From a virus: a stretch of DNA of 32,997 nt. Positions 1,116-24,748 of the stretch are shown here, one piece after another; position 1 is the first letter of the stretch; each line of letters begins with the position of its first letter. The stretch is taken from positions 1-32,997 of the IMG/VR virus record IMGVR_UViG_3300007735_000628, one strand, 5' to 3'. Under the pieces are notes generated by a model. That model did not search any database. It was not told the DNA's origin and saw nothing but the letters and a program-made list of their open reading frames with translations. The translations under genes and the position numbers were made by a program.

Positions 1116-1144
1116 TTGACTTTCTATAAAACTTCGGTTATTCT
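1116..1144 (+). promoter_or_regulatory. leaderless-type promoter
   Basis: -35 TTGACT (1116-1121), 17-nt spacer beginning TTCTATAAAA, -10 TATTCT (1139-1144). ATG 9 nt later after TTTTAACAC, the initial sequence shared by one class of promoters here. Confidence 0.85.
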
Positions 1145-1153
1145 TTTAACACT

Positions 1154-1504
1154 ATGGGATACATTACAAGTTACAAATTGAAATGGGACTGTAAAAAGTC
1201 GAAAACCACTTGGGATGAAATTTCCGACGAGATTGCTCTCCGACAGAAAGCTGGCACCGATTTCTTTTATGGGGTAGATGAGAATGGGGATTGTTCCGAT
1301 TCTTGTAAGTGGTATGACCACGAGACGGAAATCGCACAGTTCTCCAAGATTTACCCCGACGTTCTCTTTGAACTGCGTGGTGAAGGGGAGGATTCGGGAG
1401 ACATCTGGAAGAAATACTTCAAGAACGGAAAGATGCAGCTCTGTCCGGTCAAGATGACTTTTGACCCGTATGACGAATCGAAACTCAAAACGGTGAGGGC
1501 TTGA
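1154..1504 (+). CDS. hypothetical protein, MGYI-type (116 aa)
   Basis: Starts MGYITSYKLKW, a beta-strand-like opening, and contains a LRGEGEDSGDIWKKYFKNGK segment late in the chain. I recall similar openings and the GEG...D.W..YF..GK pattern in uncharacterised phage proteins, but no function is known. Acidic overall. The TGA stop (1502-1504) sits inside the next -35. Confidence 0.75.
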   Translation: MGYITSYKLKWDCKKSKTTWDEISDEIALRQKAGTDFFYGVDENGDCSDSCKWYDHETEIAQFSKIYPDVLFELRGEGEDSGDIWKKYFKNGKMQLCPVKMTFDPYDESKLKTVRA

Positions 1505-1529
1505 CTTTCTATAAAACCTCGGTTAGACT
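1501..1529 (+). promoter_or_regulatory. leaderless-type promoter overlapping a stop codon
   Basis: -35 TTGACT (1501-1506) contains the upstream TGA. 17-nt spacer, -10 TAGACT (1524-1529), ATG 9 nt later. Confidence 0.8.
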
Positions 1530-1538
1530 CTTGCCACG

Positions 1539-1745
1539 ATGAACAAACAATGGAAAGACAATAGCATTCAGTTTCCCCGATTGATTGCGGAACTTGAGGC
1601 CGCTGGGGCGTTCACCAATCAAGTCACGCAAGAACTGTGTGAGAACATGGATTTGACCGTCGATGAAATTTCGGAGATTGTTGACCGTGCTCAAGACGAG
1701 TGGGAAGCCATCAAGTATATAACGCTGCCGGTCAAACGAAAGTAA
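1539..1745 (+). CDS. hypothetical helical protein (68 aa)
   Basis: Mostly helical by composition, acidic middle (MDLTVDEISEIVDRAQDEWE) and basic tail (PVKRK). The TVDEISEIVDRA segment could be a short helix pair. First gene of a three-gene unit with the genes at 1750 and 2090. Confidence 0.7.
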   Translation: MNKQWKDNSIQFPRLIAELEAAGAFTNQVTQELCENMDLTVDEISEIVDRAQDEWEAIKYITLPVKRK

Positions 1746-1749
1746 AATT

Positions 1750-2088
1750 ATGGGTTACACACAGTACTGGGATCACAAAGGTTTCACTGATGAACAGTGG
1801 AAGAAACTCGTCACGTTCACACGGAATTTGATTTCCGACACCAAGGTTCCGATTGTCAACGGAGAGGGCGACGAGTCGTGTGAGACGTTCAACCTGACCA
1901 AGGCTGCACAGGACTTCGAGTTCTGCAAGACCCGTCAGTTTCCTTATGACGAGGTTGTGGTCGCCATCATGCGTGAGGCAATGGAAATCAATCCTACGTT
2001 CAATCCTCGTTCGGATGGCGGTTGGGCGGTGTTTGGTGATGTGGCACCTCGGACTGTTATGGGTTATGTCGTGGAATCACGCCAGTAA
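1750..2088 (+). CDS. conserved phage protein, MGYTxYW family (112 aa)
   Basis: MGYTQYWDHKGFTDEQW opening and a later FCKTRQFPYDEVVVAIM segment. This combination (MGYTHYW-like start, FCKT.R.PYD in the middle) recurs in uncharacterised phage and bacterial proteins, so the family is probably real though its role is unknown. Starts 4 nt after the previous stop, with AAAATT before ATG and no Shine-Dalgarno. Confidence 0.8.
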   Translation: MGYTQYWDHKGFTDEQWKKLVTFTRNLISDTKVPIVNGEGDESCETFNLTKAAQDFEFCKTRQFPYDEVVVAIMREAMEINPTFNPRSDGGWAVFGDVAPRTVMGYVVESRQ

Positions 2089-2089
2089 T

Positions 2090-2278
2090 ATGGATCTCCC
2101 ACAGACAGCTGTGCGTGACCAAATGTGGAACATTGCATTTGGTGGATTTGAAGATAAAATCAATCACAAAGACGTAGATACGTCAGTTGTTAGGGCGGGC
2201 ACCAGAACCGTTAGAAGTGGCTACGCCAACAGTTTCGATGACGTAAGGATTGACCTTGCTCAAAAAAGAAACGGTTGA
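2090..2278 (+). CDS. hypothetical protein (62 aa)
   Basis: MDLPQTAVRDQMWNIAFGGF... ends QKRNG. The ATG at 2090 lies 1 nt after the previous stop (TAATATG) and is preferred to upstream in-frame starts that would overlap the preceding gene extensively. TGA stop lies in the next -35 TTGACT. Not recognised. Confidence 0.6.
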   Translation: MDLPQTAVRDQMWNIAFGGFEDKINHKDVDTSVVRAGTRTVRSGYANSFDDVRIDLAQKRNG

Positions 2279-2302
2279 CTTTCTATAAAAAACCTCTACA
2301 CT
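2275..2302 (+). promoter_or_regulatory. leaderless-type promoter overlapping a stop codon
   Basis: -35 TTGACT (2275-2280) contains the upstream TGA. 16-nt spacer with TTCTATAAAA, -10 TACACT (2297-2302), ATG 10 nt later. Confidence 0.8.
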
Positions 2303-2312
2303 GGTTGAACGT

Positions 2313-2552
2313 ATGAAACAGCCTGACCAAAACTTTCTGTGTTCCTTCAAGTGTCCCTTCTGTGGGGATAGGGTGGAAGTCACCACCGAGAAATACGCGG
2401 ATAGCTGGTCAAACGTCCGTGGTTTCTGTGATTCTCAGACTTCAAAAATCTGTGGAATGGAGTTCAACTTCGGAATCTTCGGTCAAGGTTTCACTCGTCA
2501 GGAAATGAAAGAGTCGGTCATGGAAGTGGTCGGTATCAACTTCATCAACTAA
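2313..2552 (+). CDS. putative zinc-ribbon protein (79 aa)
   Basis: CPFCG at about residues 14-18 and a second Cys pair further on (GFCDSQTSKICGMEF) suggest one zinc site of the zinc-ribbon type. The second pair is widely spaced (C-x7-C), which is unusual. Acidic helical C-terminus. Role unknown. Confidence 0.7.
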   Translation: MKQPDQNFLCSFKCPFCGDRVEVTTEKYADSWSNVRGFCDSQTSKICGMEFNFGIFGQGFTRQEMKESVMEVVGINFIN

Positions 2553-2556
2553 CACA

Positions 2557-3003
2557 ATGAGCACGTTTCTAAACAAAAAGTGGGTGACTACGGTTCGGAT
2601 TCCGTCCTTCGGTTCCACGGGAACTCTGGAGTATCTCAAGTTCCTCTCGTTTGTGGCATCAAAGGATACCAATCGTGATTGTGGCAAGAGCCAACGTGAG
2701 GTTGAGTTCGAGTTTGTCCACGAGTATCAAGCCACCAACTTCACAGTGGCTTTGGCCAAAACTTTCAATCCATCCTTCATTGAGTACGTGACCGAGAGCC
2801 GCCCGGTGTTTAACAGTTGTTGGGAACACCTTGAAGCGATGTGTAAGGCTCACGATTTCTACCACGAGATGTCCGACGACCATCGGGTGTGGCTGAATGG
2901 TCAACATGAGCTGAAACAAATCAAGCAGCTGGCCGACAAACTGGCTATCATTGACAAGGATCGAGTTCAACAGATTGTGACGGGAATTTACAAGTTGAAA
3001 TAA
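2557..3003 (+). CDS. hypothetical protein (148 aa)
   Basis: Begins 4 nt after the previous stop (TAACACAATG). The N-terminal half is beta-rich; the C-terminal third is helical (HELKQIKQLADKLAIIDKDR). No family recognised. Co-transcribed with the zinc-ribbon gene. Confidence 0.7.
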   Translation: MSTFLNKKWVTTVRIPSFGSTGTLEYLKFLSFVASKDTNRDCGKSQREVEFEFVHEYQATNFTVALAKTFNPSFIEYVTESRPVFNSCWEHLEAMCKAHDFYHEMSDDHRVWLNGQHELKQIKQLADKLAIIDKDRVQQIVTGIYKLK

Positions 3004-3007
3004 CTGG

Positions 3008-3035
3008 TTGACTTTTTCTAAAATTGGTCTAAACT
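3008..3035 (+). promoter_or_regulatory. leaderless-type promoter (copy A of a duplicated block)
   Basis: -35 TTGACT (3008-3013), 16-nt spacer, -10 TAAACT (3030-3035), ATG 9 nt later. Nearly identical from the spacer through codon 3 (MKRN) to the promoter at 3319. Confidence 0.8.
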
Positions 3036-3044
3036 GGTTCCACA

Positions 3045-3314
3045 ATGAAACGTAATCAACAAATCGACAAACATATCGACGCCGCATTAGGACTCTACGC
3101 TGCTGAAGCAAAAAGTCGGGAATATGATGCTGGCTGTGCTGGTCAAATGTCCGATGGTGGATGTAGTAGGATGTTGGGGGAGATTGATGCATACAACTGT
3201 GGTCGGAAAGGCACCATTCCAAAGTGGTTGGAACCTTATATGACGAAAGTGGTTCGGCAAAATGACCCTGAGTACGAGATGTATCTCCGTCTCCAGAAGA
3301 AATTTGGAAAATAA
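3045..3314 (+). CDS. hypothetical protein (89 aa)
   Basis: MKRNQQIDKHIDAALGLYAA... contains a Cys/Gly-rich middle (AGCAGQMSDGGCSRM) and ends LQKKFGK. The last 24 nt, from the QKKFGK codons through the stop, recur exactly at 5022-5045 behind a separate promoter, pointing to a decayed duplicate. Function unknown. Confidence 0.7.
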   Translation: MKRNQQIDKHIDAALGLYAAEAKSREYDAGCAGQMSDGGCSRMLGEIDAYNCGRKGTIPKWLEPYMTKVVRQNDPEYEMYLRLQKKFGK

Positions 3315-3318
3315 CCAG

Positions 3319-3346
3319 TTGACTTCTTATAAAATTGGTCTAAACT
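3319..3346 (+). promoter_or_regulatory. leaderless-type promoter (copy B of a duplicated block)
   Basis: -35 TTGACT (3319-3324), 16-nt spacer, -10 TAAACT (3341-3346), ATG 9 nt later. Confidence 0.8.
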
Positions 3347-3355
3347 GGTTCCACA

Positions 3356-3637
3356 ATGAAACGTAACAAAGACAGTGTGGTGAAGTTGAACACCGTTGAA
3401 ATTCGCCGGGCGGTTCGTTCCATCTACATCAACTCTTTCGCGGGTGATTTCGATGGTGACATTCCCCTCAGCAAAATCCAAATCTCCGACCGGAATTACA
3501 CCACAAAGATTAACGGTAAGGTGGTTCTTCGTTACGACCGACACTGTCACTACATCAACGAACTTGATCATCAGACCGCTGTGTATCTCTATCTTCAGTC
3601 CGTTGAACAGGTTTTGAACTTTCCAGAGGAAGAATGA
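3356..3637 (+). CDS. hypothetical protein (93 aa)
   Basis: MKRNKDSVVKLNTVEIRRAV..., mixed alpha/beta with a basic N-terminus and acidic end (NFPEEE). The first four residues match the neighbouring 3045 gene because the promoter/start block is duplicated; the rest does not. Stop overlaps the next start (ATGA). Confidence 0.7.
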   Translation: MKRNKDSVVKLNTVEIRRAVRSIYINSFAGDFDGDIPLSKIQISDRNYTTKINGKVVLRYDRHCHYINELDHQTAVYLYLQSVEQVLNFPEEE

Positions 3638-4071
3638 TTCTCACTTCTAAAGAAAAGTGGGTGGTTGACCGTCTAAAACGACAAGGGTGGCGGACGGACA
3701 CACACTTCATGTCATACTCGCCGGATCAGTGTCTCCTTTGGCTGCCCGGTAAGGTTGTGAATACATCCTTTGACTGGTGTGGTCGCCCGTTTTTTTACAT
3801 GGACCGGAGAAAGGGATTGTGGCTGCACTTCCGCCCGAAACAGAATCCGGCAATGCATTTGACCTATCACATTTCGTGGTTAACGGTAAAGAATTGGGAT
3901 AAGTCAATCAATCCATTCCTCCAAATGTGTGCCAAGTTGAATGATGATTGGGATTTGATGAACTTCGAGAAATTTTCGGAAAAGCACGGTGCGAGTGAAA
4001 GAAATTCTTACGTTATTGAAAAAGAAAGATTGACTTCTTCTAATCTCCACGGTATTCTATTACCACAATGA
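3634..4071 (+). CDS. hypothetical protein (145 aa) with a promoter inside its 3' end
   Basis: Overlaps the previous stop by 4 nt (ATGA). Basic and aromatic (FDWCGRPFFYMDRRKGLWLHF). Its last ~14 codons (LTSSNLHGILLPQ) are encoded by the next gene's promoter (4030-4058), and its stop again overlaps the next start (ATGA). The tail may be a run-on after loss of an earlier stop. Not recognised. Confidence 0.6.
   Translation: MILTSKEKWVVDRLKRQGWRTDTHFMSYSPDQCLLWLPGKVVNTSFDWCGRPFFYMDRRKGLWLHFRPKQNPAMHLTYHISWLTVKNWDKSINPFLQMCAKLNDDWDLMNFEKFSEKHGASERNSYVIEKERLTSSNLHGILLPQ
4030..4058 (+). promoter_or_regulatory. leaderless-type promoter inside a coding region
   Basis: -35 TTGACT (4030-4035), 17-nt spacer, -10 TATTCT (4053-4058), ATG 9 nt later. 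Confidence 0.8.
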
Positions 4072-4400
4072 ATCAACCGATTTACCATGAAACCAAATCC
4101 GCAACTTATTTCGATAATGGTGACGGAAGTCTGACCGTTAAACGAAAGACAAAGACAAAAGTTTCCCAAACCCTAGCGGTGTTCAAGAATGATCCTCAAG
4201 GTCACGCAGCGTATCGTCGGTTTCGTGAAACCCTTGTAAATAACGGAAAACGTCTATACACCCTCTATCGATGTCCCAATGACGGTCGATCCTATAAGCA
4301 AATCGCGACAGACTCAAATACCTACGGATGGCGCAGTAGTCGTGGGTCTATTCCTAAAAGGTTCGCCAAAGTTCTTGTGGTTCTTCGTTCCATCAACTAA
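4068..4400 (+). CDS. hypothetical basic protein (110 aa)
   Basis: Rich in Lys/Arg (VKRKTKTKVSQT, KRFAKVLVVLRSIN) with a YHETKSATYFDNGDGSLTVKR opening that reads as a beta hairpin. Possibly nucleic-acid binding by charge only. The last gene before a change in start-site style at 4435. Confidence 0.65.
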   Translation: MNQPIYHETKSATYFDNGDGSLTVKRKTKTKVSQTLAVFKNDPQGHAAYRRFRETLVNNGKRLYTLYRCPNDGRSYKQIATDSNTYGWRSSRGSIPKRFAKVLVVLRSIN

Positions 4401-4420
4401 CATTGAATAAACTATTTTTG

Positions 4421-4426
4421 AAGGAG
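4421..4426 (+). promoter_or_regulatory. canonical Shine-Dalgarno (exception)
   Basis: AAGGAG 8 nt before ATG 4435. Almost all other genes here lack one, so this gene was probably acquired separately or is translated differently. Confidence 0.8.
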
Positions 4427-4434
4427 ATTAAAAC

Positions 4435-4626
4435 ATGAAAGCAATCGATTTCATTCGCATCCTTTTCAACAATGTCACTTATTACACTGAAAAAACTCCT
4501 AATTGGGAGAAAAATGAAGTGATTTCCCGCGCCGAATGGCGGGCGATGCTGACTCTGCTCGCCGAAAATGGGGAATTCATTAAAAATGAAGCGGGTGATT
4601 GGATTGCGATTGACGTTTCCCGATAA
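4435..4626 (+). CDS. hypothetical protein (63 aa) with a strong RBS
   Basis: MKAIDFIRILFNNVTYYTEK... is helical, ending ENGEFIKNEAGDWIAIDVSR. It has AAGGAG upstream and no consensus promoter directly before it. The -35 of the next promoter lies in its last codons. Not recognised. Confidence 0.7.
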   Translation: MKAIDFIRILFNNVTYYTEKTPNWEKNEVISRAEWRAMLTLLAENGEFIKNEAGDWIAIDVSR

Positions 4627-4638
4627 TTAACGTAAGAT
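4610..4638 (+). promoter_or_regulatory. leaderless-type promoter
   Basis: -35 TTGACG (4610-4615, inside the end of the upstream gene), 17-nt spacer, -10 TAAGAT (4633-4638), ATG 7 nt later. Confidence 0.65.
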
Positions 4639-4645
4639 TAAAACC

Positions 4646-4960
4646 ATGAAGACACAATTAGACATTCGTGTTAAAAATCCCACTAATCCCGCTGAAGTTT
4701 TAGTTCTTGAGCGAGGACTTGATTGCCAAGTGCGGAAAACGGAAAAGGGAAATTGGCGTTGTTTTATTCCACATCCTTCTCGACCTGAAAAACCTTTCCA
4801 AGTTCGGATTGAAAGCGCATTTCGCGCTCCTAGCGTCAAGACAATGGAAAAGTGGAGTTTTGATGGGATAGCAAAGTCAATTGGTGGCAAGAAAGTTGAG
4901 CCTGACGGTTACGACGAAAACGGGCTTCCCTCTTGGTTTCTTGTTTTGGGTTTGATTTAA
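4646..4960 (+). CDS. hypothetical protein (104 aa)
   Basis: MKTQLDIRVKNPTNPAEVLV... is beta-rich with GNWRCFIPHPSRPEKPFQV, ending in a hydrophobic strand (PSWFLVLGLI). Unrecognised. Downstream lies a promoter with a broken start codon (4972-5042). Confidence 0.65.
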   Translation: MKTQLDIRVKNPTNPAEVLVLERGLDCQVRKTEKGNWRCFIPHPSRPEKPFQVRIESAFRAPSVKTMEKWSFDGIAKSIGGKKVEPDGYDENGLPSWFLVLGLI

Positions 4961-4971
4961 TCGTTTTCCGT

Positions 4972-5042
4972 TTGCAAAGGAATTTCCTTTGATTTAGTAT
5001 TAAACCACGAAGATTGATTTTCAGAAGAAATTTGGAAAATAA
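4972..5042 (+). pseudogene. promoter plus vestigial gene tail
   Basis: TTGCAA (4972-4977), 17-nt spacer, TAGTAT (4995-5000). Exactly 9 nt on, where a start codon belongs, stands AAG (5010). The frame then reads IDFQKKFGK-stop, ending with the same QKKFGK-TAA as the 3045 gene (24-nt identity, 5022-5045 versus 3294-3317). Best read as a paralogue of that gene that lost its interior and start codon. Confidence 0.55.
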
Positions 5043-5045
5043 CCA

Positions 5046-5073
5046 TTGACTTTTTGTAAAATCAGTCTATACT
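5046..5073 (+). promoter_or_regulatory. leaderless-type promoter
   Basis: -35 TTGACT (5046-5051), 16-nt spacer, -10 TATACT (5068-5073), ATG 6 nt later. Confidence 0.8.
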
Positions 5074-5079
5074 TTTTAT

Positions 5080-5232
5080 ATGAATCGATACAAGACTGTT
5101 GGTGTTCATGGTGAGTATGAGACGGAGTTTGCATCTGACGGTGAGGCGGTCAATTGGAACATCGGCTTTACCGATGGACCTGACAGTTATCCACTCATGA
5201 AACTTGTCGACGGTGAGTGGCTGGAAATTTGA
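5080..5232 (+). CDS. hypothetical protein (50 aa)
   Basis: MNRYKTVGVHGEYETEF... ends LVDGEWLEI, beta-rich and acidic. Start set by the promoter. Stop is 1 nt before the next -35. Too short for a family call. Confidence 0.65.
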   Translation: MNRYKTVGVHGEYETEFASDGEAVNWNIGFTDGPDSYPLMKLVDGEWLEI

Positions 5233-5233
5233 G

Positions 5234-5261
5234 TTGACTTTTTCTAATCCCACGGTATTCT
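5234..5261 (+). promoter_or_regulatory. leaderless-type promoter
   Basis: -35 TTGACT (5234-5239), 16-nt spacer, -10 TATTCT (5256-5261), ATG 9 nt later. Confidence 0.8.
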
Positions 5262-5270
5262 GTTCCCACA

Positions 5271-5648
5271 ATGAAATACGAAATCGAAGTCTTGATCCCT
5301 GCCACGGGCGGCGAGTCTGATAGTGTCAATATGACTTTGAACCTTGAGATGACACGTTCCGAGGTTCTGGAAATGTTGTTCGGTTGGTTCAATCATGGCA
5401 GTGGTTCTGAGTGTCAGATGTTTCTCGAACGAGGGATCAGATCACTCTCTGTCAATGACTTCGTCCGGTTGAATAACGAGTGGTTTCAGTGTCGTTCGGT
5501 GGGATGGGACAGGGTTGACGATTCTCTGGTGAAAAATCAAATCGATCAGGCAAAGGCTATCTGCGTTCAGGGACACGGTCAGGTTTCGATGTGGTCCGTT
5601 CTCCACACGTTGAACCGTAATAAATTTGTTGGTAGTTTCAAAGACTGA
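5271..5648 (+). CDS. hypothetical protein (125 aa)
   Basis: MKYEIEVLIPATGGESDSVN... gives a beta strand and acidic loop, then helices. LSVNDFVRLNNEWFQCRSVGWDRV resembles a small beta-barrel segment. No known family. Confidence 0.7.
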   Translation: MKYEIEVLIPATGGESDSVNMTLNLEMTRSEVLEMLFGWFNHGSGSECQMFLERGIRSLSVNDFVRLNNEWFQCRSVGWDRVDDSLVKNQIDQAKAICVQGHGQVSMWSVLHTLNRNKFVGSFKD

Positions 5649-5652
5649 GGGC

Positions 5653-5680
5653 TTGACTTCTGATAAAACCCCTCTATACT
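5653..5680 (+). promoter_or_regulatory. leaderless-type promoter
   Basis: -35 TTGACT (5653-5658), 16-nt spacer, -10 TATACT (5675-5680), ATG 9 nt later. Confidence 0.85.
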
Positions 5681-5689
5681 GATCACACA

Positions 5690-5914
5690 ATGAAAATCAA
5701 GTTCAAGAAAGACGTTGAGTTACAAATCGTGGTCGATTTCGATCATGCGACCGATGAAGCTACCTACGAAACCGCTACCTTCCTCCGAGACGATGAAACC
5801 GATATTGACATCTGCGATGCAGCCAATCCTCCTCTCGCACGAGAGATTCAATTCGGCGATGGTTCGGTTGCTTTTGTCACCCCGGAGTTTTGGGCTGTGG
5901 TGGAAGTTCTGTAA
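5690..5914 (+). CDS. hypothetical acidic protein (74 aa)
   Basis: MKIKFKKDVELQIVVDFDHATDE..., acidic, with a beta strand opening. FGDGSVAFVTPEFWAVVEVL closes the chain. No family recognised. First gene of a two-gene unit. Confidence 0.7.
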   Translation: MKIKFKKDVELQIVVDFDHATDEATYETATFLRDDETDIDICDAANPPLAREIQFGDGSVAFVTPEFWAVVEVL

Positions 5915-5932
5915 GTTTCTTTCTCTATTCGT

Positions 5933-6223
5933 ATGAAAATCGAAAATCTACCAATCGCGATTCGTCTCAACGGTCAACTCAAGGACCTTGACAAAGCACT
6001 GGCTGAACTGGCCAATTCCGAGTGTTTCACCAAAAACTCTCCTGGGTGGGGAGTGAGTAACGAAACATCGTTGTATCAGTTGCACATCACTCAATACAAG
6101 GACGGCAGCGGATTTCATGTTGACCTGGCCGGTCTGGAGGTCGGCGTCGAAATTCTCAAATATACCAAACAACTTCTCGAAGCGAAGCGGGCTGACATCC
6201 TTCGGGAGATTTCTGAACTGTGA
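5933..6223 (+). CDS. hypothetical protein (96 aa)
   Basis: Starts 18 nt after the previous stop with no promoter of its own. The C-terminal ~25 residues form a charged helix (YTKQLLEAKRADILREISEL), possibly a coiled coil. Not recognised. Confidence 0.7.
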   Translation: MKIENLPIAIRLNGQLKDLDKALAELANSECFTKNSPGWGVSNETSLYQLHITQYKDGSGFHVDLAGLEVGVEILKYTKQLLEAKRADILREISEL

Positions 6224-6235
6224 GTGTCGGGAGGC

Positions 6236-6264
6236 TTGACTTTTTATAAAATCTGGCCCATACT
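6236..6264 (+). promoter_or_regulatory. leaderless-type promoter
   Basis: -35 TTGACT (6236-6241), 17-nt spacer, -10 CATACT (6259-6264). Initial sequence GTCCACACA then ATG, a second recurring class. Confidence 0.8.
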
Positions 6265-6273
6265 GTCCACACA

Positions 6274-6579
6274 ATGAAACTGTTCACAAAAGAAATCAAC
6301 GAGAAGTTGTCGAAGTGTGGTTACGACCATAAGCGTCCGGTCCTCAAACTATTTGTTCCGTGGGGTGCTGGAACGTGGTTGGTCACTGGTGAAGAGGACG
6401 GCATTTTGTATGGGTGGGGAGATTTGGGCATGGGCTGTGTCGAGTGGGGCGGTCTGTTCTCCCGTGAGGAAGTGGAAGCCATTCGTGGCCCGTTTGGTTT
6501 GACGATTGAACGGGATCTCCATTTCAAGGATGACGGCGTGACGGATTACGGCTCGTTGGAAACCCTTGCTGGGATTTAA
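6274..6579 (+). CDS. DUF2958-like protein
   Basis: 101 aa. MKLFTKEINEKL opens the chain, then a strand with WLVTGEEDGILYGWGDL, and the hallmark EAIRGPFGLTIERDLHF near residues 68-85. This order (L.KE..KL, T..D.D....G..D, RGPFGL.IERDL.F) matches what I know of DUF2958, common on plasmids and phages and of unknown function. Length fits the family. First of three genes. Confidence 0.85.
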   Translation: MKLFTKEINEKLSKCGYDHKRPVLKLFVPWGAGTWLVTGEEDGILYGWGDLGMGCVEWGGLFSREEVEAIRGPFGLTIERDLHFKDDGVTDYGSLETLAGI

Positions 6580-6582
6580 GTT

Positions 6583-6759
6583 ATGAACGAAGACAACCCT
6601 CACTACAAGATCGCCTCCATCATCTATTTCAAGGATGATGTGGAGATGGCAAGAATCCTTCGGTGGATTGAAGCATTGAAGGAAAAGGGTGTTATTGACG
6701 GTCACGACACCCGTGAATACATCAGTGATTACGGTGACCCGTGTTGGTATATCCCTTGA
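6583..6759 (+). CDS. hypothetical protein (58 aa)
   Basis: MNEDNPHYKIASIIYFKDDV... begins 3 nt after the DUF2958 stop (TAAGTTATG). An alpha/beta plan (KIASIIYF strand, VEMARILRWIEALKEKGVI helix, HDTREYISDYG) suggests a compact fold. No family recognised. Confidence 0.7.
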   Translation: MNEDNPHYKIASIIYFKDDVEMARILRWIEALKEKGVIDGHDTREYISDYGDPCWYIP

Positions 6760-6764
6760 AACCT

Positions 6765-6977: not shown

Positions 6978-6982
6978 GAGGC

Positions 6983-18963: not shown

Positions 18964-18967
18964 TAAG

Positions 18968-18998: not shown

Positions 18999-19015
18999 CT
19001 TTACTAAATGGAGGC

Positions 19016-19044: not shown

Positions 19045-19053
19045 TTTAACACG

Positions 19054-19260
19054 ATGAACGAACAACTTGACCCACAGAACGAATCCCACGAACTGGCAGT
19101 GATGTCCGTTGAGGAACAAATCCAGGAACAGAAGTTCATGGATGAGGCCCGAGAAATCCGTGAAGCTGACATGGCCCGTGGTTGGCCCGGTGATGGTTCC
19201 GGTATGGACGACTTCGCGGACATGAACGCCAACGAGGTGATGGATTACTGCAACGAATAA
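19054..19260 (+). CDS. hypothetical very acidic protein (68 aa)
   Basis: Glu/Asp/Met-rich (VEEQIQEQKFMDEAREIREA, GMDDFADMNANEVMDY). A DNA-mimic-like charge is noticeable, but short acidic phage proteins are common. Followed by a zinc-ribbon gene on the same transcript. Confidence 0.65.
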   Translation: MNEQLDPQNESHELAVMSVEEQIQEQKFMDEAREIREADMARGWPGDGSGMDDFADMNANEVMDYCNE

Positions 19261-19264
19261 ATTT

Positions 19265-19408
19265 ATGGACAACATCAACTGGTCGGAGATTTACGAAGAT
19301 GGAAAGTGTCCTGATTGTGGCGAACACATTCCCGGCTACACTCAAGACGGCGAATCGTGTCTCAACTGTGAACACACTTTCATTGCGTTTCCTCAGCCGA
19401 ACGAGTGA
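19265..19408 (+). CDS. small zinc-ribbon protein (47 aa)
   Basis: CPDCG (residues 15-19) and CLNC (about 32-35) form a compact four-Cys zinc ribbon. It starts 4 nt after the preceding stop (AATTTATGG). Confidence 0.7.
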   Translation: MDNINWSEIYEDGKCPDCGEHIPGYTQDGESCLNCEHTFIAFPQPNE

Positions 19409-19411
19409 GGC

Positions 19412-19439
19412 TTGACTTTCTATAAAAATCATCTACACT
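19412..19439 (+). promoter_or_regulatory. leaderless-type promoter
   Basis: -35 TTGACT (19412-19417), 16-nt spacer with TTCTATAAAA, -10 TACACT (19434-19439), ATG 8 nt later. Confidence 0.85.
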
Positions 19440-19447
19440 GTCCCTAC

Positions 19448-19744
19448 ATGAAAACCATTCCATTGAAGACGGCACACGAGTTGATTGAGAACGCGGCTGC
19501 TATCATCGCCGACCATAATGCTCTCATGTATCCCTCGGTGTCGGATTTGACTGGTGAGGAAGACAACGAGTTTCTTTACATCAGCTGGACCGACGGGGAC
19601 GGATATGAATATCGGATTAAGGCCAACGAAGGTCCGAATCAAACCGTCAAGGTCACTGACCAAGGCGACCTTGTGTTGGTTGACGATGAGGGGGATGAGT
19701 TTGAGATCACCCTTCTCAAGATGAATGTAGTTAGAGTTGATTAA
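19448..19744 (+). CDS. hypothetical acidic beta-rich protein (98 aa)
   Basis: An N-terminal helix (AHELIENAAAIIADHNALMY) then strands (FLYISWTDGDGYEYRIKANE, GDLVLVDDEGDEFEITLLKM). Acidic. Unknown. Co-transcribed with the following membrane gene. Confidence 0.7.
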   Translation: MKTIPLKTAHELIENAAAIIADHNALMYPSVSDLTGEEDNEFLYISWTDGDGYEYRIKANEGPNQTVKVTDQGDLVLVDDEGDEFEITLLKMNVVRVD

Positions 19745-19749
19745 AATTT

Positions 19750-19953
19750 ATGAATAACACCAAAGTTGAAGAAACCATCGTTACTGTTTTGATTACGACA
19801 GTGTCCGTGATTATAACGATGTGTTTAACAGAAATTATGGTGGTGAAACGAATGTCCCGCCAATCCCTTGAAGGATACAAGGGGTACGTCACCTACAAAA
19901 CCAATTCGGTCGGCGAAACCACGATTGACAAGTTGAGTTGGGAAAAGAAGTAA
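19750..19953 (+). CDS. single-pass membrane protein (67 aa)
   Basis: One hydrophobic segment (TIVTVLITTVSVIITMCLTE) after a 9-residue start, then a basic, polar C-terminal part. Starts 5 nt after the preceding stop. Confidence 0.65.
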   Translation: MNNTKVEETIVTVLITTVSVIITMCLTEIMVVKRMSRQSLEGYKGYVTYKTNSVGETTIDKLSWEKK

Positions 19954-19956
19954 GGC

Positions 19957-19985
19957 TTGACTTCTTATCGTTTCTGAGATAATCT
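19957..19985 (+). promoter_or_regulatory. leaderless-type promoter
   Basis: -35 TTGACT (19957-19962), 17-nt spacer, -10 TAATCT (19980-19985), ATG 9 nt later. Confidence 0.8.
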
Positions 19986-19994
19986 ATTCCCACA

Positions 19995-20282
19995 ATGAAC
20001 ACTACATCTGCCACCGAGTCGCTCGTCGAGTTCTACCATCTGCCTGGCCTTGGGGTCAAGGAGACTGCTACGCTCGTCCACACCGGCACCCACGACAGCT
20101 GCCATGAGATGTATTCCCATCTCCGTAAGGTCAACCTGGCCACAGGGGATACCGAGGGTTATCGTTACAGCATCCTCCCTACGGCTGAGGCTGGCCGTGT
20201 GGTGAAGGAGACGAATGATGCCCGTGACCGGGACCTCGCTGAGTTTCGGCATCGTGTGTATGGTGAGCCGAAGTCGGTCTAA
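19995..20282 (+). CDS. hypothetical protein (95 aa)
   Basis: His-containing middle (LVHTGTHDSCHEMYSHLRKV) could bind metal but matches no family I know. A charged helix (VVKETNDARDRDLAEFRHRV) near the end. GC-richer codons than neighbours. Confidence 0.65.
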   Translation: MNTTSATESLVEFYHLPGLGVKETATLVHTGTHDSCHEMYSHLRKVNLATGDTEGYRYSILPTAEAGRVVKETNDARDRDLAEFRHRVYGEPKSV

Positions 20283-20431: not shown

Positions 20432-20644
20432 ATGAACCAAGACCCCAATTTTGATGGTCACGAACAACGTGGGCATGATGATGCCTTGACGCAGGCGGGC
20501 CTGATACTTATCGGCATAGTCTTAACCGCAATCATCATCATTGTAGTGCTTGTGGACAATTCTGAGGCTCCCTGGCAGATCAAAGCGAGTTGTGTCGGAG
20601 CAGCATTGATGGGATTCACTATCTTGGCAGGATGGCTGGAGTAA
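20432..20644 (+). CDS. two-segment membrane protein (70 aa)
   Basis: A polar His/Asp-rich ~20-residue start, then GLILIGIVLTAIIIIVVLV and a second segment (SCVGAALMGFTILAGWL). Starts 3 nt after the previous stop. Holin-like size only. Confidence 0.65.
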   Translation: MNQDPNFDGHEQRGHDDALTQAGLILIGIVLTAIIIIVVLVDNSEAPWQIKASCVGAALMGFTILAGWLE

Positions 20645-20646
20645 GG

Positions 20647-20675
20647 TTGACTTTGTTTAACCGCCGAGCTATTCT
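20647..20675 (+). promoter_or_regulatory. leaderless-type promoter for a micro-ORF
   Basis: -35 TTGACT (20647-20652), 17-nt spacer, -10 TATTCT (20670-20675), ATG 9 nt later after TTTTAACAC. Confidence 0.75.
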
Positions 20676-20684
20676 TTTAACACA

Positions 20685-20714
20685 ATGCCGAGTGGTCAAC
20701 GCCGATTTTTTTAA
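20685..20714 (+). CDS. possible 9-residue micro-ORF or gene stump
   Basis: MPSGQRRFF-stop at the exact start distance from a full promoter, ending in a T-rich stretch, before another promoter at 20724. May be a remnant of a deleted gene or a short regulatory transcript. Confidence 0.35.
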   Translation: MPSGQRRFF

Positions 20715-20723
20715 GAAAAATAG

Positions 20724-20752
20724 TTGACTTTTTATACCTTCCATTGTAGTCT
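20724..20752 (+). promoter_or_regulatory. leaderless-type promoter for a broken gene
   Basis: -35 TTGACT (20724-20729), 17-nt spacer, -10 TAGTCT (20747-20752), ATG 9 nt later. Confidence 0.75.
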
Positions 20753-20761
20753 CTTCCCGTA

Positions 20762-20860
20762 ATGAACGACGGCGGCAGTCGATAACTGCCAGTGAGGCGA
20801 TCAAACGCCAACGATTGGGGGACCAGAGGGTGCGCAAATTCCTTTACCGTTATCTTTAGT
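20762..20860 (+). pseudogene. probable frameshifted small gene
   Basis: From ATG 20762 the frame stops after 7 codons (MNDGGSR). The frame shifted by -1 is open and gene-like: ERRRQSITASEAIKRQRLGD then QRVRKFLYRYL to a TAG at about 20858-20860. A single-base change or programmed slip would give a ~33-residue basic protein. Confidence 0.4.
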
Positions 20861-20877
20861 TTTGATTAAATAAAGGC

Positions 20878-20906
20878 TTGAGGTCCGACCTTGGTGCTGA
20901 TATTCT
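20878..20906 (+). promoter_or_regulatory. leaderless-type promoter with TTGAGG
   Basis: -35 TTGAGG (20878-20883), 17-nt spacer, -10 TATTCT (20901-20906), ATG 9 nt later after TTTTAACAC. Confidence 0.7.
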
Positions 20907-20915
20907 TTTAACACG

Positions 20916-21257
20916 ATGAAAGTTACCCAGAAGCAAATCCGTTCCTTCCTCAAAAAGCAGCTTTCCACGAATGAGGCGTGGGCGCTTCGCGCATTGGTGA
21001 GAATCCATGAGTTCCAGACGATGGACGAGCAGGCTGCGGGTGTCACCCGTGAGGCGAATTCGGTCGGATTCAGTGGGTGCGACGCCGAGTTTCTGACCAG
21101 CCTCACCCGCCAATACCTGACTCGGGGTTCGCTTAGCCCGAAGCAGATGGGTTTCGTCTTCAAGAAGATGCCTCGTTACTGGGGACAAATCAAGGGGCTC
21201 ATTCCGGCGGAGAAATTGAATCAGTTGGTCGAGTCAGATTTATCGGTTGTGGCTTGA
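20916..21257 (+). CDS. conserved protein, EFQT-DEQ / LSPKQM family (113 aa)
   Basis: Helix with WALRALVRIHEFQTMDEQAA, then NSVGFSGCDAEFLTSLTRQY and RGSLSPKQMGFVFKKMPRYW. I recognise this order from a common phage and plasmid family with no assigned role. Stop TGA lies in the next -35. Confidence 0.85.
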   Translation: MKVTQKQIRSFLKKQLSTNEAWALRALVRIHEFQTMDEQAAGVTREANSVGFSGCDAEFLTSLTRQYLTRGSLSPKQMGFVFKKMPRYWGQIKGLIPAEKLNQLVESDLSVVA

Positions 21258-21281
21258 CTTTCTATAAAAACTCGATAAACT
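21254..21281 (+). promoter_or_regulatory. leaderless-type promoter overlapping a stop codon
   Basis: -35 TTGACT (21254-21259) contains the upstream TGA. 16-nt spacer with TTCTATAAAA, -10 TAAACT (21276-21281), ATG 6 nt later. Confidence 0.8.
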
Positions 21282-21287: not shown

Positions 21288-21560
21288 ATGAAAATGAAAA
21301 TCACACCATTCGATGAAGCTGGTTCATATAGAACCGGTGGACTCATCCACGTCACTGCGGCTGATATTGAAAAGAAACTCGGCTTCCCTTCAAATATCGA
21401 GGATGATTCCTCTAAGGTGAAGTATAGTTGGGGATTCAAGGTCAACGGCGTTCCGTGTGGCATTTGGGATTACAAGGGAAGTTGGATGGTTGGATCGTTT
21501 AGCACATTCGGTCCAAACGAAATCTTTGTTAAACTCTTCGACAAAAAATACGTTGCTTGA
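21288..21560 (+). CDS. conserved phage protein, IWDYKGS type (90 aa)
   Basis: IHVTAADIEKKLGFPSNIED then KVKYSWGFKVNGVPCGIWDY, KGSW and FSTFGP. The LGFPSN..DD..KV..SWGF..(G)..C.IWDYKGS...FST.G order recurs in uncharacterised phage proteins. The tRNA-Thr promoter begins inside its last codons (21557). Confidence 0.75.
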   Translation: MKMKITPFDEAGSYRTGGLIHVTAADIEKKLGFPSNIEDDSSKVKYSWGFKVNGVPCGIWDYKGSWMVGSFSTFGPNEIFVKLFDKKYVA

Positions 21561-21584
21561 CCTGTGGTTTAAATGGTGTAGAGT
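21557..21584 (+). promoter_or_regulatory. tRNA promoter
   Basis: -35 TTGACC (21557-21562), 16-nt spacer, -10 TAGAGT (21579-21584). The tRNA begins 7 nt downstream, so transcription should start about at its first base. Confidence 0.75.
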
Positions 21585-21590: not shown

Positions 21591-21666
21591 GCCCGAGTAG
21601 CTCAATTGGCAGAGCATCCGCTTTGTAAGCGGACGGTTGGCGGTTCAATCCCGTCCTCGGGCTCCA
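21591..21666 (+). tRNA. tRNA-Thr (TGT)
   Basis: Acceptor GCCCGAG/CTCGGGC, D stem GCTC/GAGC, anticodon arm TCCGC-tttgtaa-GCGGA, T arm GGCGG-ttcaatc-CCGTC, encoded CCA. Fully regular. Reads ACA. Confidence 0.95.
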
Positions 21667-21698: not shown

Positions 21699-21908
21699 AT
21701 GAAAGCGACATTTCTGAAAGATACTGCGGTGGATATGCTAGATTCACACGAGGAACTTTTTTATAAATTCTTTCGTAAGGGTGATGAAGTTCAGGTCTCT
21801 TCTGCGGATATAACCAGTCAGTGTGGCAGTCAGTTCACCAACATCCTTTTGATGAACGGCGATCTTCTCCTTGACGTTCCCCGTAATAGTGTTACCATTC
21901 TTGAATGA
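21699..21908 (+). CDS. hypothetical protein (69 aa)
   Basis: ATG 21699, 32 nt after the tRNA-Thr end, probably on its transcript. MKATFLKDTAVDMLDSHEEL then KGDEVQVSSADITSQCG and NGDLLLDVPRNSVTIL, a small beta-barrel-like plan. The stop overlaps the next start (ATGA). Confidence 0.65.
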   Translation: MKATFLKDTAVDMLDSHEELFYKFFRKGDEVQVSSADITSQCGSQFTNILLMNGDLLLDVPRNSVTILE

Positions 21909-22192
21909 GTGCTAACAATATCCTTCCATTTTCTGGTGCATCTGCACCACAATCACGTCAACCGAGTATCACATTGAAAGACACCACGAGTGTTGAATGT
22001 GATGCGTGTAAGAATACCACCTTCAATGAATCGTTGATCATGCGTAAGGTCTCCCGACTCCTCACTGGAGCTCCAAAGGATTCCTATGTGCCGGTCCCTG
22101 TATTTCTTTGTTCAGCATGCGGACATCTGAACGAGGAGTTTCTGCCGGCTGAATTGAAGGCAGGACCTGCACCCAGTCTCGTCAAGGCCTAA
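21905..22192 (+). CDS. zinc-ribbon protein (95 aa)
   Basis: A Pro/Ser-rich start, VECDAC (about residues 31-36), then VPVFLCSACGHLNEEFLP (C-x2-C at about 71-74) make a four-Cys ribbon around a ~35-residue insert. Common in small phage proteins; role unknown. Confidence 0.78.
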   Translation: MSANNILPFSGASAPQSRQPSITLKDTTSVECDACKNTTFNESLIMRKVSRLLTGAPKDSYVPVPVFLCSACGHLNEEFLPAELKAGPAPSLVKA

Positions 22193-22434: not shown

Positions 22435-22620
22435 ATGGAACTTAAAACCTACGAAGCGACCGCAGCTGAAACCTTTGAAGGTATTTGGCATGCATCTGAG
22501 GACTCGAATGAGGTCCGAGAGTTCATTGATGTGCTCATGCCAAACACCGATAACACGTTCAGCACAAGACACTTCTGCGGAGATCCTTTCGCACAAATGA
22601 TTGAAGAATTATTTATTTGA
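22435..22620 (+). CDS. hypothetical acidic protein (61 aa)
   Basis: MELKTYEATAAETFEGIWHA... acidic, ends IEELFI. ATG 22435 is preferred; an in-frame GTG at 22429 overlaps the previous stop. TGA stop lies in the next -35. Confidence 0.6.
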   Translation: MELKTYEATAAETFEGIWHASEDSNEVREFIDVLMPNTDNTFSTRHFCGDPFAQMIEELFI

Positions 22621-22645
22621 CTTCTTTTAAGACCTGCGGTATTCT
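22617..22645 (+). promoter_or_regulatory. leaderless-type promoter overlapping a stop codon
   Basis: -35 TTGACT (22617-22622) contains the upstream TGA. 17-nt spacer, -10 TATTCT (22640-22645), ATG 9 nt later. Confidence 0.85.
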
Positions 22646-22654: not shown

Positions 22655-22978
22655 ATGAAGACACAAATTACTCTGTCGGTTTCTGAAGCGGAATTCCGTC
22701 TCGCCTCAAAAATGTTGGATGACCTTCCTTATTCCGATAATGAGGTGTCTGTCAAAATTGCCCTTCCCGAGGTCCGTAACGACAACCTCCCGCTCCAGCA
22801 AACTTCCAAGATTCATTTGATCAAGCTGATCCGCACTCTGGCCGAAGATATTCTTCAGAACCGTATCAGTGTTTCGACTCGTGAACCTGGCACCCCTGGT
22901 GCCGGTGAGAAATACCTCGGTATGGCGGACGCGAAGGAATACGTCGAGAAGTATCTCAAGGGCGCTCCGAGGTTTTAA
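22655..22978 (+). CDS. hypothetical protein (107 aa)
   Basis: MKTQITLSVSEAEFRLASKM... a strand and helices (IHLIKLIRTLAEDILQNRIS), then a Gly/Pro loop (REPGTPGAGEKYLG) and a terminal helix. Unknown. A hairpin follows the stop. Confidence 0.7.
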   Translation: MKTQITLSVSEAEFRLASKMLDDLPYSDNEVSVKIALPEVRNDNLPLQQTSKIHLIKLIRTLAEDILQNRISVSTREPGTPGAGEKYLGMADAKEYVEKYLKGAPRF

Positions 22979-23027: not shown

Positions 23028-23468
23028 ATGAGAACAAAATACAGAAACTATACAGACGAAGACGTAATAAACTTTTCAAAAGAGGTAACATCCATTGCGG
23101 GGTTGCTTAGAAAGTTGAATCTGGTGGAAGCGGGTGGAAACTACGGAAACATAAAACGGATAATTCAAAGGTTAAAAGTCGATACGAGTCATTGGACTGG
23201 ACAGGCTTGGAACAAAGAAAAACAACTTAAAGATTGGTCGGAATACACTAAATCGTCCTCTCTACGTAAACTTTTAATAAAAGAACGTGGAAATACTTGC
23301 GAATCATGTAAATTGAGTAAATGGTTAAATCTCCCAATTCCATTAGAGGTTCATCACGTAGATGGAGACAGAACGAACAATGTGGTTGACAATTTAAAAT
23401 TACTGTGTTGTAATTGTCATGCTCAAACGGATACATGGCGTCGACGAAACAAACTTACGGCTAAGTAG
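23028..23468 (+). CDS. HNH endonuclease
   Basis: 146 aa. An N-terminal helical part (YTDEDVINFSKEVTSIAGLL), then C-x2-C (TCESCK), LEVHHVDGDRTNNVVDNLKL and LLCCNCHAQT: the zinc-bound HNH core of phage free-standing nucleases. Markedly more AT-rich than neighbours, as expected for a mobile insert. Its last 10 bp, including TAG, form the 5' acceptor strand of tRNA-Leu. Confidence 0.9.
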   Translation: MRTKYRNYTDEDVINFSKEVTSIAGLLRKLNLVEAGGNYGNIKRIIQRLKVDTSHWTGQAWNKEKQLKDWSEYTKSSSLRKLLIKERGNTCESCKLSKWLNLPIPLEVHHVDGDRTNNVVDNLKLLCCNCHAQTDTWRRRNKLTAK

Positions 23469-23535
23469 TCCAACGGCAGGAGACACGCGACTTAAAATCG
23501 TGCCAGTATGGGTTCAAATCCCATCTTAGCCACCA
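23459..23535 (+). tRNA. tRNA-Leu (TAA) with short variable loop
   Basis: Acceptor GGCTAAG/CTTAGCC, anticodon arm CGCGA-cttaaaa-TCGTG (anticodon TAA, U33 present), T arm ATGGG-ttcaaat-CCCAT, encoded CCA. The variable region is only about 5 nt, whereas tRNA-Leu normally has a long arm. Confidence 0.88.
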
Positions 23536-23539
23536 CTTT

Positions 23540-23779
23540 ATGAACAGATTGGAATTGGAATTCGATTACGACGGTCAGGCTGACCTAAACCGTTACCGGC
23601 TTCATTCACGATACGGGTCCACGTTCATCACTCTCTGTGACCGACAGATTGTTGACTCGGTTGACCACTACAATAGTCCCGACATCTGGATTCAGAACCG
23701 AAACGAACTTCATACCACTTTGTCGGATTTGAGTCGTTTTTGGGCATTTCATCGGAACACAGTTGGCACCAGAAACTAA
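23540..23779 (+). CDS. hypothetical protein (79 aa)
   Basis: Begins 5 nt after tRNA-Leu, so it shares its transcript. MNRLELEFDYDGQADLNRYR... strand-rich, then helices (RNELHTTLSDLSRFWAFHRN). Unknown. Confidence 0.65.
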   Translation: MNRLELEFDYDGQADLNRYRLHSRYGSTFITLCDRQIVDSVDHYNSPDIWIQNRNELHTTLSDLSRFWAFHRNTVGTRN

Positions 23780-23780
23780 C

Positions 23781-24023
23781 ATGATCCTCGCTGCTGCAAT
23801 CCTCAAAGACGGTGTGATTTACACGGGCAAACGTCACTGTAACATCATCCGAGATACACCTAAACACCTTCGGGTGGGTAAAGGTCCACACGTTCAAGGT
23901 TTCGTTGACCATGAGGGTAATTTTTTAAATCGGGAGGATGCAGCTAGGCACGCTAAACTCTGGGGGCAGGTGGAGAAACTCAAGTTCAATTCAAAAGAAT
24001 TGTTTAGCGAAGATTTGTGGTGA
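23781..24023 (+). CDS. conserved phage protein, GKRHxxII / SEDLW type (80 aa)
   Basis: MILAAAILKDGVIYTGKRHC, then HVQGFVDHEGNFLNREDAAR, GQVEKL and a terminal ELFSEDLW. This sequence order recurs in small phage proteins of unknown role. ATG 23781 follows the previous stop by 1 nt. Confidence 0.8.
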   Translation: MILAAAILKDGVIYTGKRHCNIIRDTPKHLRVGKGPHVQGFVDHEGNFLNREDAARHAKLWGQVEKLKFNSKELFSEDLW

Positions 24024-24047
24024 CAGAATATAAAAGTGTGGTAGTCT
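24020..24047 (+). promoter_or_regulatory. leaderless-type promoter with GTGACA
   Basis: -35 GTGACA (24020-24025, overlapping the upstream TGA), 16-nt spacer, -10 TAGTCT (24042-24047), ATG 8 nt later. Confidence 0.7.
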
Positions 24048-24055
24048 GGTGTGAC

Positions 24056-24274
24056 ATGAACGTATCACTAAAATTTCACGAAAAGGATTTCACGGATTTC
24101 CGTTCGTTCGAGGCGTCCGTAAAACGGCAGTTGGGCCCAACCGTCTATGTTGGCACTGACAGTTTAACTTTTTGGTTTCGTTATCCCAAGGCGTTAGTTG
24201 AAAGACTTCGACCGAGCTGCCCGAACAATCAACTTGAATTTGAACTCACGTCAGAAAATCCAGAGAAAAAGTAA
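24056..24274 (+). CDS. hypothetical protein (72 aa)
   Basis: MNVSLKFHEKDFTDFRSFEA... alpha/beta, ends ELTSENPEKK. Start placed by the promoter; an upstream start at 24017 would run through it. Unknown. Confidence 0.65.
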   Translation: MNVSLKFHEKDFTDFRSFEASVKRQLGPTVYVGTDSLTFWFRYPKALVERLRPSCPNNQLEFELTSENPEKK

Positions 24275-24280
24275 ATCGGC

Positions 24281-24308
24281 TTGACGATAAAAACTTTTGG
24301 TGTAGTAT
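24281..24308 (+). promoter_or_regulatory. promoter with a longer leader
   Basis: -35 TTGACG (24281-24286), 16-nt spacer, -10 TAGTAT (24303-24308). ATG is 35 nt downstream. Confidence 0.7.
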
Positions 24309-24343
24309 TAAAACCGTTAGAGAAACAACAAATAAAACATACA

Positions 24344-24748
24344 ATGAACCGAGTCCATTCACTCCGCAAGTCAGGCAATAAGGTCCGTGTCACCCATCGT
24401 CGTCGTTACTTTGACCCCGTGAACCGTCGGTGGACACTGTTGTCACGTTACGAGCGTGCTCTTGCTCCTCTCCCTAGCTTCGTCACTGCTGACGTTCGTG
24501 GTGGTGAGACGGAGGTTTCGCTTCGCACGAAGGAAGGTCGGGAGTTGACTTCCGTGGCGAAGTGTTCCAAGAAGGACATCTACGTTCGTTCAGTCGGTCT
24601 GAACACGGCGCTTGATGGGCTGTTGTTTGAGGCGACCAAGCCGGTCGAAGTGAAGACGCTTGGTCCGAATCCAAACGTGTTGACCCAAACCGGGTTCTCA
24701 ATTCGTCCGGATGGAACCGAGGTCCACGATCTTGTTCACCGAAGTTAA
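24344..24748 (+). CDS. hypothetical basic protein (134 aa)
   Basis: MNRVHSLRKSGNKVRVTHRR then RYFDPVNRRWTLLSRYERA: a strongly basic first third, and a beta-rich remainder (FVTADVRGGETEVSLRTKEG). Last plus-strand gene before the convergent tRNA array; hairpins at 24757 and 24877 follow. Confidence 0.68.
   Translation: MNRVHSLRKSGNKVRVTHRRRYFDPVNRRWTLLSRYERALAPLPSFVTADVRGGETEVSLRTKEGRELTSVAKCSKKDIYVRSVGLNTALDGLLFEATKPVEVKTLGPNPNVLTQTGFSIRPDGTEVHDLVHRS

Follow-up and report, generated by a model that had tools for sequence, protein, structure and literature searches.

Start-codon-abutting promoters and predicted leaderless transcripts in a T4-like phage lineage

The 32,997-bp fragment analyzed here, a complete contig of the IMG/VR database (IMGVR_UViG_3300007735_000628; hereafter the window; GC content 45%), is best read as an early/accessory region of an uncultured T4-like phage. 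It encodes an RNA ligase of family phrog_562, a marker gene of the clade described below, together with a metallophosphoesterase (phrog_1649), an HD phosphohydrolase, and 28 tRNA genes detected by ARAGORN, 26 of which lie on the minus strand in the right-hand quarter. No structural genes were identified in the fragment, and its first 8 kb (1-8000) yielded no DNA match among 50,697 phage records. Throughout the window, many genes are preceded by a recurring sigma70-type promoter-like sequence whose -10 box almost touches the start codon (Table 1).

We scanned both strands for TTGAC or at least five of the six letters of TTGACT, followed by a 15-18-nucleotide (nt) spacer and TAnnnT, using 100 dinucleotide shuffles as controls. 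The gap was defined as the number of nucleotides between the -10 box and the ATG, and open reading frames (ORFs) were counted if they spanned at least 30 codons. This strict scan returned 69 sites, compared with 20.2 +/- 3.8 in the shuffles (maximum 29), an excess over chance of elements with a TTGACA-like -35 box, a 16-18-nt spacer, and a TATAAT-like -10 box; an independent consensus scan of positions 1-20000 found 55 sites versus 25.6 +/- 5.1. At 38 of the 69, the ATG of an ORF lies 4-12 nt past the -10 box (shuffles: mean 0.64, maximum 4). The gap is 9 nt in 18 of these cases, 6 nt in six, 8 nt in six, 7 nt in three, 10 nt in three, and 11 nt in two, and 29 of the 38 genes have no alternative in-frame start codon upstream before a stop. 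One of the 38 (ATG 32035, preceded by TTGTCT) falls within another gene and probably matches by chance. Four additional sites (6236, 11135, 13724, 16689) carry CATACT as the -10 box with a 17-nt spacer and a gap of 9, and a further site at 20878 combines a TTGAGG -35 box with the same gap.

A preliminary description of the window had counted about 48 such promoters between 1116 and 24344, all but two followed by a start codon after 6-11 nt, most often 9. Its shared motif and its promoter-to-start geometry hold, and its count falls to about 43 on the plus strand of that interval. About 37 of these precede a start codon at the described distance, two of them ahead of micro-ORFs, leaving about six exceptions: three sites (6983, 8666, 24281) lie 34-46 nt before a coding start, one (21557) precedes a tRNA gene, and two (13146, 14899) lead into apparently non-coding DNA. 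The pattern also extends beyond the interval and to both strands, recurring at 372 and 670 (plus) and at 141, 27349, 27989, 28557, and 32722 (minus).

The geometry is kept in distant relatives. Using window proteins as queries, we compared 123 orthologous start sites, each differing in sequence context, on other contigs (31-86% protein identity). A promoter lies 4-12 nt upstream of 97 of them and elsewhere within 45 nt of only three; 20 starts received no promoter call, several of these showing the CATACT variant at the same place. Gene by gene, the gap was the same in 43 comparisons and different in 18. The stretch from the -10 box to the ATG is 78% identical among orthologs and the spacer 61%, versus 35% just upstream of the -35 box; the corresponding hexamer identities, 94% and 81%, are inflated by the detection rule. 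This conserved placement implies selection on the layout. It also bears on the idea that start codons were misassigned, in which case true starts further downstream would give the genes ordinary leaders. ORF calls are mechanical, which leaves room for such errors, but orthologous proteins align from the same methionine, codons 2-8 are 65% identical in ungapped nucleotides as opposed to 35% upstream of the promoter, and the start regions contain no Shine-Dalgarno (SD) motifs; we regard misassignment as highly improbable.

RNA-ligase searches of IMG/VR recovered 80 loci, most with mainly short gaps, which were almost absent from block shuffles; the same search of genome contigs found no relative. 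Met1 of the ligase aligns in 15 sequences at 49-74% identity, and most carry a promoter 6-10 nt before it, with differing spacers. Pooling this clade with longer contigs gave 962 distinct sites, 538 with gaps of 4-12 nt and 125 with gaps of 13-60 nt, with peaks at 6 (185) and 9 (136); the longest clade members are contigs of 365 and 369 kb. Promoter flavor varies by lineage: relatives G002, G003, G007, and G008 resemble the window (TTGACT ... CACAATG), whereas G005 uses TTGACA/TATAAT-like boxes with gaps of 5-6, a diversity that suggests long maintenance rather than recent copying. The preliminary description's view that such scale would be unusual for a phage is borne out, as a large phage clade follows this layout as its rule, apparently in late promoters too.

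SD sequences are absent from these genomes. By one method, strong SDs precede 39% of genes in T4 and 48% in Aeromonas phage 25 (background 3%), whereas the window, G002, and G003 reach 4-9%, no higher than background. The lack of a ribosome-binding site noted earlier is general in the phage, extending to all gene classes including genes without their own promoter, and is not by itself a mark of leaderlessness. These promoterless genes, the second genes of small operons among them, mostly have A-rich positions -6 to -2 and T at -1; 36-60% of them start within 12 nt of the preceding stop, a spacing compatible with translational coupling.

In an alternative account the promoters are real and give short leaders, but leaderlessness merely follows from the dense packing of genes in a host that translates independently of SDs: ribosomes would recognize the A-rich, Kozak-like context, leader length would be irrelevant, and read-through polycistronic RNAs might yield most of the protein. 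The SD-free starts of every class, the A-rich context of promoterless genes, and the lack of excess terminators all agree with it. On the other side, the gaps are not just short but cluster tightly at 6 and 9 nt, and they are mostly kept per gene. The intergenic spacing ahead of promoter-led genes, about 40 nt, accommodates a promoter, yet the -10 box is placed against the ATG, and Flavobacterium phage immuto, which also lacks SDs, does not show the layout. We therefore consider this account unlikely, though the most serious of the alternatives.

Sigma70 holoenzymes start transcription about 7 nt past the -10 hexamer. The cassette seen here, a sigma70-type promoter (TTGACT, 16-17 nt, TAnnCT) followed by 6-11 nt and then ATG, would accordingly give transcripts beginning 5'-AUG at a gap of 6, 5'-ACAUG at 8, and 5'-ACAAUG at 9 if read by a host-type RNA polymerase; the recurring contexts CACAATG and CTACATG place an A at this expected +1. 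Predicted leaders of promoter-led genes would then measure 0-5 nt, a well-supported prediction close to the 0-4 nt first proposed, and would contain no ribosome-binding site. Translation would proceed by leaderless initiation (5'-AUG first) in a host with no dependence on SD pairing, and downstream cistrons would probably be translated by coupling or through their A-rich start context. The motif, its geometry and conservation, the lack of SDs, and the placement of the late-type motif described below are read directly from sequence; promoter activity, the position of +1, leaderless translation, an SD-independent host, and the late role of TATTTAT(A) are deduced. On this basis, we think it likely that the window belongs to a T4-like phage lineage with leaderless early, and probably late, transcripts.

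The position of +1 would shift if TTGACT/TAnnCT served instead as an operator or other binding site, or if the promoter were read by a phage-modified polymerase that starts at an unusual point. Lending some weight to this, AGGCTTGACTTTCTATAAAA recurs in the window and its close relatives, making the element longer than a plain promoter. The hexamers and their 16-17-nt spacing nevertheless fit sigma70 promoters, G005 uses textbook TTGACA/TATAAT with gaps of 5-6, and the element at one site stops 6 nt short of a tRNA 5' end. Moreover, no Sigma70_r4 match above the curated cut-off, the signature sought for a phage-encoded sigma factor, was found in 13 phage records, making a host factor the likeliest reader of the promoters. 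We judge an operator or modified-polymerase site very unlikely.

Several observations weigh against leaderless transcription as the rule. For 23 of the 69 sites, an ORF start is lacking within 60 nt (chance alone would produce about 20 sites), a few promoters imply leaders of about 28-40 nt, and the clade members L011, L132, and L187 show the layout weakly or not at all. Terminator-like sites are not above chance frequency in the window, so leadered read-through transcripts may exist as well.

Late genes appear to point the same way as early ones. Clade member G008 encodes a T4-type terminase, portal, and major head protein, identifying it as T4-like, and TATTTAT lies upstream of 21 of the 95 genes on its contig versus 2.0 expected. 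Reverse-complementing the T4 late promoter consensus TATAAATA gives this enriched motif, TATTTATA (TATTTAT(A)). T4-like late promoters of the form TATAAATA are read by a gp55-type sigma factor. Across three groups of capsid-region loci, TATTTAT(A) falls 2-8 nt before the ATG in 77 of 105 motif-bearing genes, typically at 5-6, compared with only 2 of 16 in immuto, where most copies lie 12-26 nt away. Late-type promoters of the clade thus appear to abut the start codon too, and if TATTTAT(A) acts as a promoter, the leaderless layout would extend to late genes.

Several known systems share parts of this arrangement. TA-led (leaderless) bacterial genes carry a TAnnnT box about 10-12 bp before the start and no SD, and leaderless genes make up about 19-20% of genes in Actinobacteria and about 39-40% in Deinococcus-Thermus (Zheng et al. 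2011, PMC3160421). The window combines the same features, which define leaderless genes in that study: a TAnnnT box, here 6-11 nt ahead of the ATG at 38 sites, and no SD. What is a minority class in cellular genomes, however, is the rule for promoter-led genes of the clade, which add a strong -35 box and gap maxima at 6 and 9 nt. Among the Straboviridae, T4 and Aeromonas phage 25 share with the clade the T4-type terminase, portal, major head protein, RIIA, and a phrog_562-family RNA ligase; unlike it, they have strong SDs and, in the strict scan, no gene with TTGAC-N15-18-TAnnnT within 70 nt of its start. Immuto (MW353176) is likewise SD-less, with a major capsid protein at 52% identity and TATTTAT(A) enriched upstream of genes, but it has no TTGAC-type promoters near starts, and its TATTTAT mostly stands 12-26 nt, not 4-8 nt, before the ATG. 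Single leaderless phage messages are familiar as well, such as lambda cI, whose mRNA starts at or next to the AUG, but these are single genes and not a genome-wide rule.

Large freshwater phages encoding bS21 have been linked to SD-less Bacteroidetes (PMC9723584). Microcystis phage Mel-JY01 resembles the clade in being a large freshwater phage, shares 53% capsid-protein identity with G008, and carries rpsU; it differs in having moderate SD usage and no leaderless layout. A phage S21 acting as a translation switch found no support in 13 records of the clade, which contain no PF01165 match and no S21 gene. Although leaderless mRNA is already known, we found no report, in the open-access literature searched, of a phage clade relying on it as the rule. 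Leaderless messages are usually regarded as a minor mode of initiation; if our reading is true, the clade would offer a natural large-scale system for studying ribosome choice of leaderless messages, SD-free phage takeover of translation, and the hosts that favor it. The gap distribution, with its sharp classes at 6 and 9 nt, and the mostly kept gene-specific gaps give testable predictions of where +1 lies and how long the leaders are. As a sequence signature, the layout can guide the search for similar phages and the hosts they infect.

Regarding the host, an SD-less member of the Patescibacteria is a weak lead. It stems from metagenome-assembled genome (MAG) G013, in which one 3.9-kb contig carries a capsid gene of the clade's type (81% identical across an overlap of 117 residues). 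We infer that this MAG is Patescibacteria from its size of about 0.7 Mb, how that compares with other members of its phylum, and its 16S sequence. The 3' end of that 16S (L298) reads GGATTAATTCAATG where CCUCC is expected, and G013 appears to lack a canonical anti-SD. Its genes lack SDs, a TAnnnT box (consensus TATAcT) stands 5-9 nt ahead of the ATG in about 36% of them, and T occupies -1, a feature shared with the phages. However, no second strong match emerged when 380 and 397 Patescibacteria genomes were searched, the co-binning consists of one contig, and an ultra-small cell would be an unexpected home for a large T4-like phage. A speculative but sizeable possibility is that the hosts of the clade are SD-less Patescibacteria, or some other bacterial group whose anti-SD is degenerate, and that phage expression, early and late, is wholly leaderless and matches the leaderless habit of the host.

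Bacteroidota are not our first choice, as the promoters read TTGACT/TAnnCT with no TTTG after TA, while the sigma-ABfr consensus of that phylum is TTTG/TAnnTTTG (-33/-7) and mRNAs of F. johnsoniae are mostly leadered (PMC6847099). The relation of the capsid to that of Flavobacterium phage immuto makes such a host plausible, if less likely. Separately, G008 and G007 carry transfer-messenger RNA (tmRNA) genes (L108:17225-17603 and L117:5012-5386, respectively) with near-identical tags, AKNVIAYDFIPVEEEVLVVA and AKNVIAYDFTPVEEEVLAVA. These end like some Patescibacteria tags; in the MAG's own family most tags went uncalled, and similarity between the tmRNA sequences is confined to regions close to their ends.

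Table 1. Promoter sites and principal genes of the window. Gap, nt from -10 box to ATG; S, strict scan; C, consensus scan; O, ortholog comparison.
Position	Strand	Element	Gap	ATG (gene) or feature	Basis; relatives
372-399	+	TTGATT-16-TAAAGT	10	410 (410-673)	S; G003 ortholog also gap 10
670-697	+	promoter	9	707 (707-844)	S
1116-1144	+	promoter	9	1154 (1154-1504)	S
1501-1529	+	promoter	9	1539 (1539-1745)	S
2275-2302	+	promoter	10	2313 (2313-2552)	S; gap 10 also in G003, G002
3008-3035	+	promoter	9	3045 (3045-3314)	S
3319-3346	+	promoter	9	3356 (3356-3637)	S
4030-4058	+	promoter	9	4068 (4068-4400)	S; gap 9 also in G002, G003, G008, L131
4610-4638	+	promoter, TTGACG	7	4646 (4646-4960)	S
5046-5073	+	TTGACT-16-TATACT	6	5080 (5080-5232)	S
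5234-5261	+	promoter	9	5271 (5271-5648)	S; CATACT variant, same place, in G003, G002
5653-5680	+	TTGACT-16-TATACT	9	5690 (5690-5914)	S; short gaps in 7 relatives
6236-6264	+	TTGACT-17-CATACT	9	6274 (6274-6579)	C
6983-7010	+	promoter (exception)	34	7045
7380-7408	+	promoter	9	7418 (7418-7642)	S; gap 9 also in G003, L130
7629-7656	+	promoter	8	7665 (7665-8024)	S
8666-8693	+	promoter-like site (exception)	46	8740
8912-8939	+	promoter	7	8947 (8947-9081)	S, O
9499-9526	+	promoter	11	9538 (9538-9861)	S, O
9914-9941	+	TTGACT-16-TAGTCT	6	9948 (RNA ligase)	S; before Met1 in most relatives
9948-11039	+	RNA ligase gene, phrog_562			marker gene of clade
11135-11163	+	TTGACT-17-CATACT	9	11173	C
11361-11388	+	promoter	11	11400 (11400-11810)	S
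12468-12496	+	promoter	9	12506 (12506-12658)	S
13146-13174	+	promoter		apparently non-coding stretch
13502-13530	+	promoter	9	13540 (13540-13719)	S, O
13724-13752	+	TTGACT-17-CATACT	9	13762	C
14538-14565	+	promoter	9	14575 (14575-14757)	S, O
14899-14927	+	promoter		conserved non-coding stretch
15915-15942	+	promoter	8	15951 (15951-16586)	S; gap 8 also in G003, L005, G002
16689-16717	+	TTGACT-17-CATACT	9	16727	C
16987-17014	+	promoter	9	17024 (17024-17254)	S
17259-17287	+	promoter	9	17297 (17297-17743, HD phosphohydrolase)	S, O
17927-17954	+	TTGACT-16-TATACT	9	17964 (17964-18476)	S; gap 9 also in G003, G002, G007, G008
18473-18501	+	promoter	8	18510 (18510-18776)	S
19016-19044	+	promoter	9	19054 (19054-19260)	S; gap 9 also in 4 relatives
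19412-19439	+	promoter	8	19448 (19448-19744)	S; gap 8 also in G003, G002
19957-19985	+	promoter	9	19995 (19995-20282)	S, O
20647-20675	+	promoter	9	9-codon micro-ORF 20685-20714
20724-20752	+	promoter	9	7-codon micro-ORF 20762-20785
20878-20906	+	TTGAGG-17-TATTCT	9	20916 (20916-21257)
21254-21281	+	promoter	6	21288 (21288-21560)	S, O
21557-21584	+	promoter		ends 6 nt before tRNA-Thr (21591-21666)
21871-21898	+	promoter, TTGACG	6	21905 (21905-22192)	S, O
22617-22645	+	promoter	9	22655 (22655-22978)	S, O
24281-24308	+	promoter-like site (exception)	35	24344
112-141	-	promoter	6	105 (gene runs off window)	S
27322-27349	-	promoter	8	27313 (27104-27313)	S, O
27962-27989	-	promoter	8	27953 (27777-27953)	S, O
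28530-28557	-	promoter	10	28519 (28295-28519)	S
32695-32722	-	promoter	6	32688 (32308-32688)	S, O

Leaderless tRNAs as a general rule were considered and rejected: only the tRNA at 21591 starts 6 nt after a -10 box, the promoters of the others being 9-64 nt away or missing. In and around the tRNA region lie genes of homing-endonuclease type, HNH at 23028-23468 and GIY-YIG-type at 31576-32391 by profile, and 26134-26784, HNH-like by eye only; an abiF RNA match (RF03085, 40.8 bits) falls between tRNA genes at 28913-28949 on the minus strand.

Some plus-strand stretches near the promoters also stand out. Behind the promoter at 14899, about 135 nt of non-coding sequence (15186-15320) are 96% identical in G002, 92% in L005, and 84% in G003, a conservation exceeding that of most proteins in these phages; the stretch matches no Rfam family and is a candidate new structured RNA. 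Behind the promoter at 13146, the apparently non-coding stretch 13175-13500 contains a tRNA-like segment (13255-13326) whose match is weak, its 24.6 bits falling short of the gathering score. Finally, at 20640-20890, where two promoters of the leaderless type (20647 and 20724) precede micro-ORFs of 9 and 7 codons, a stretch without an Rfam match is 76-77% conserved in G003 and G002.

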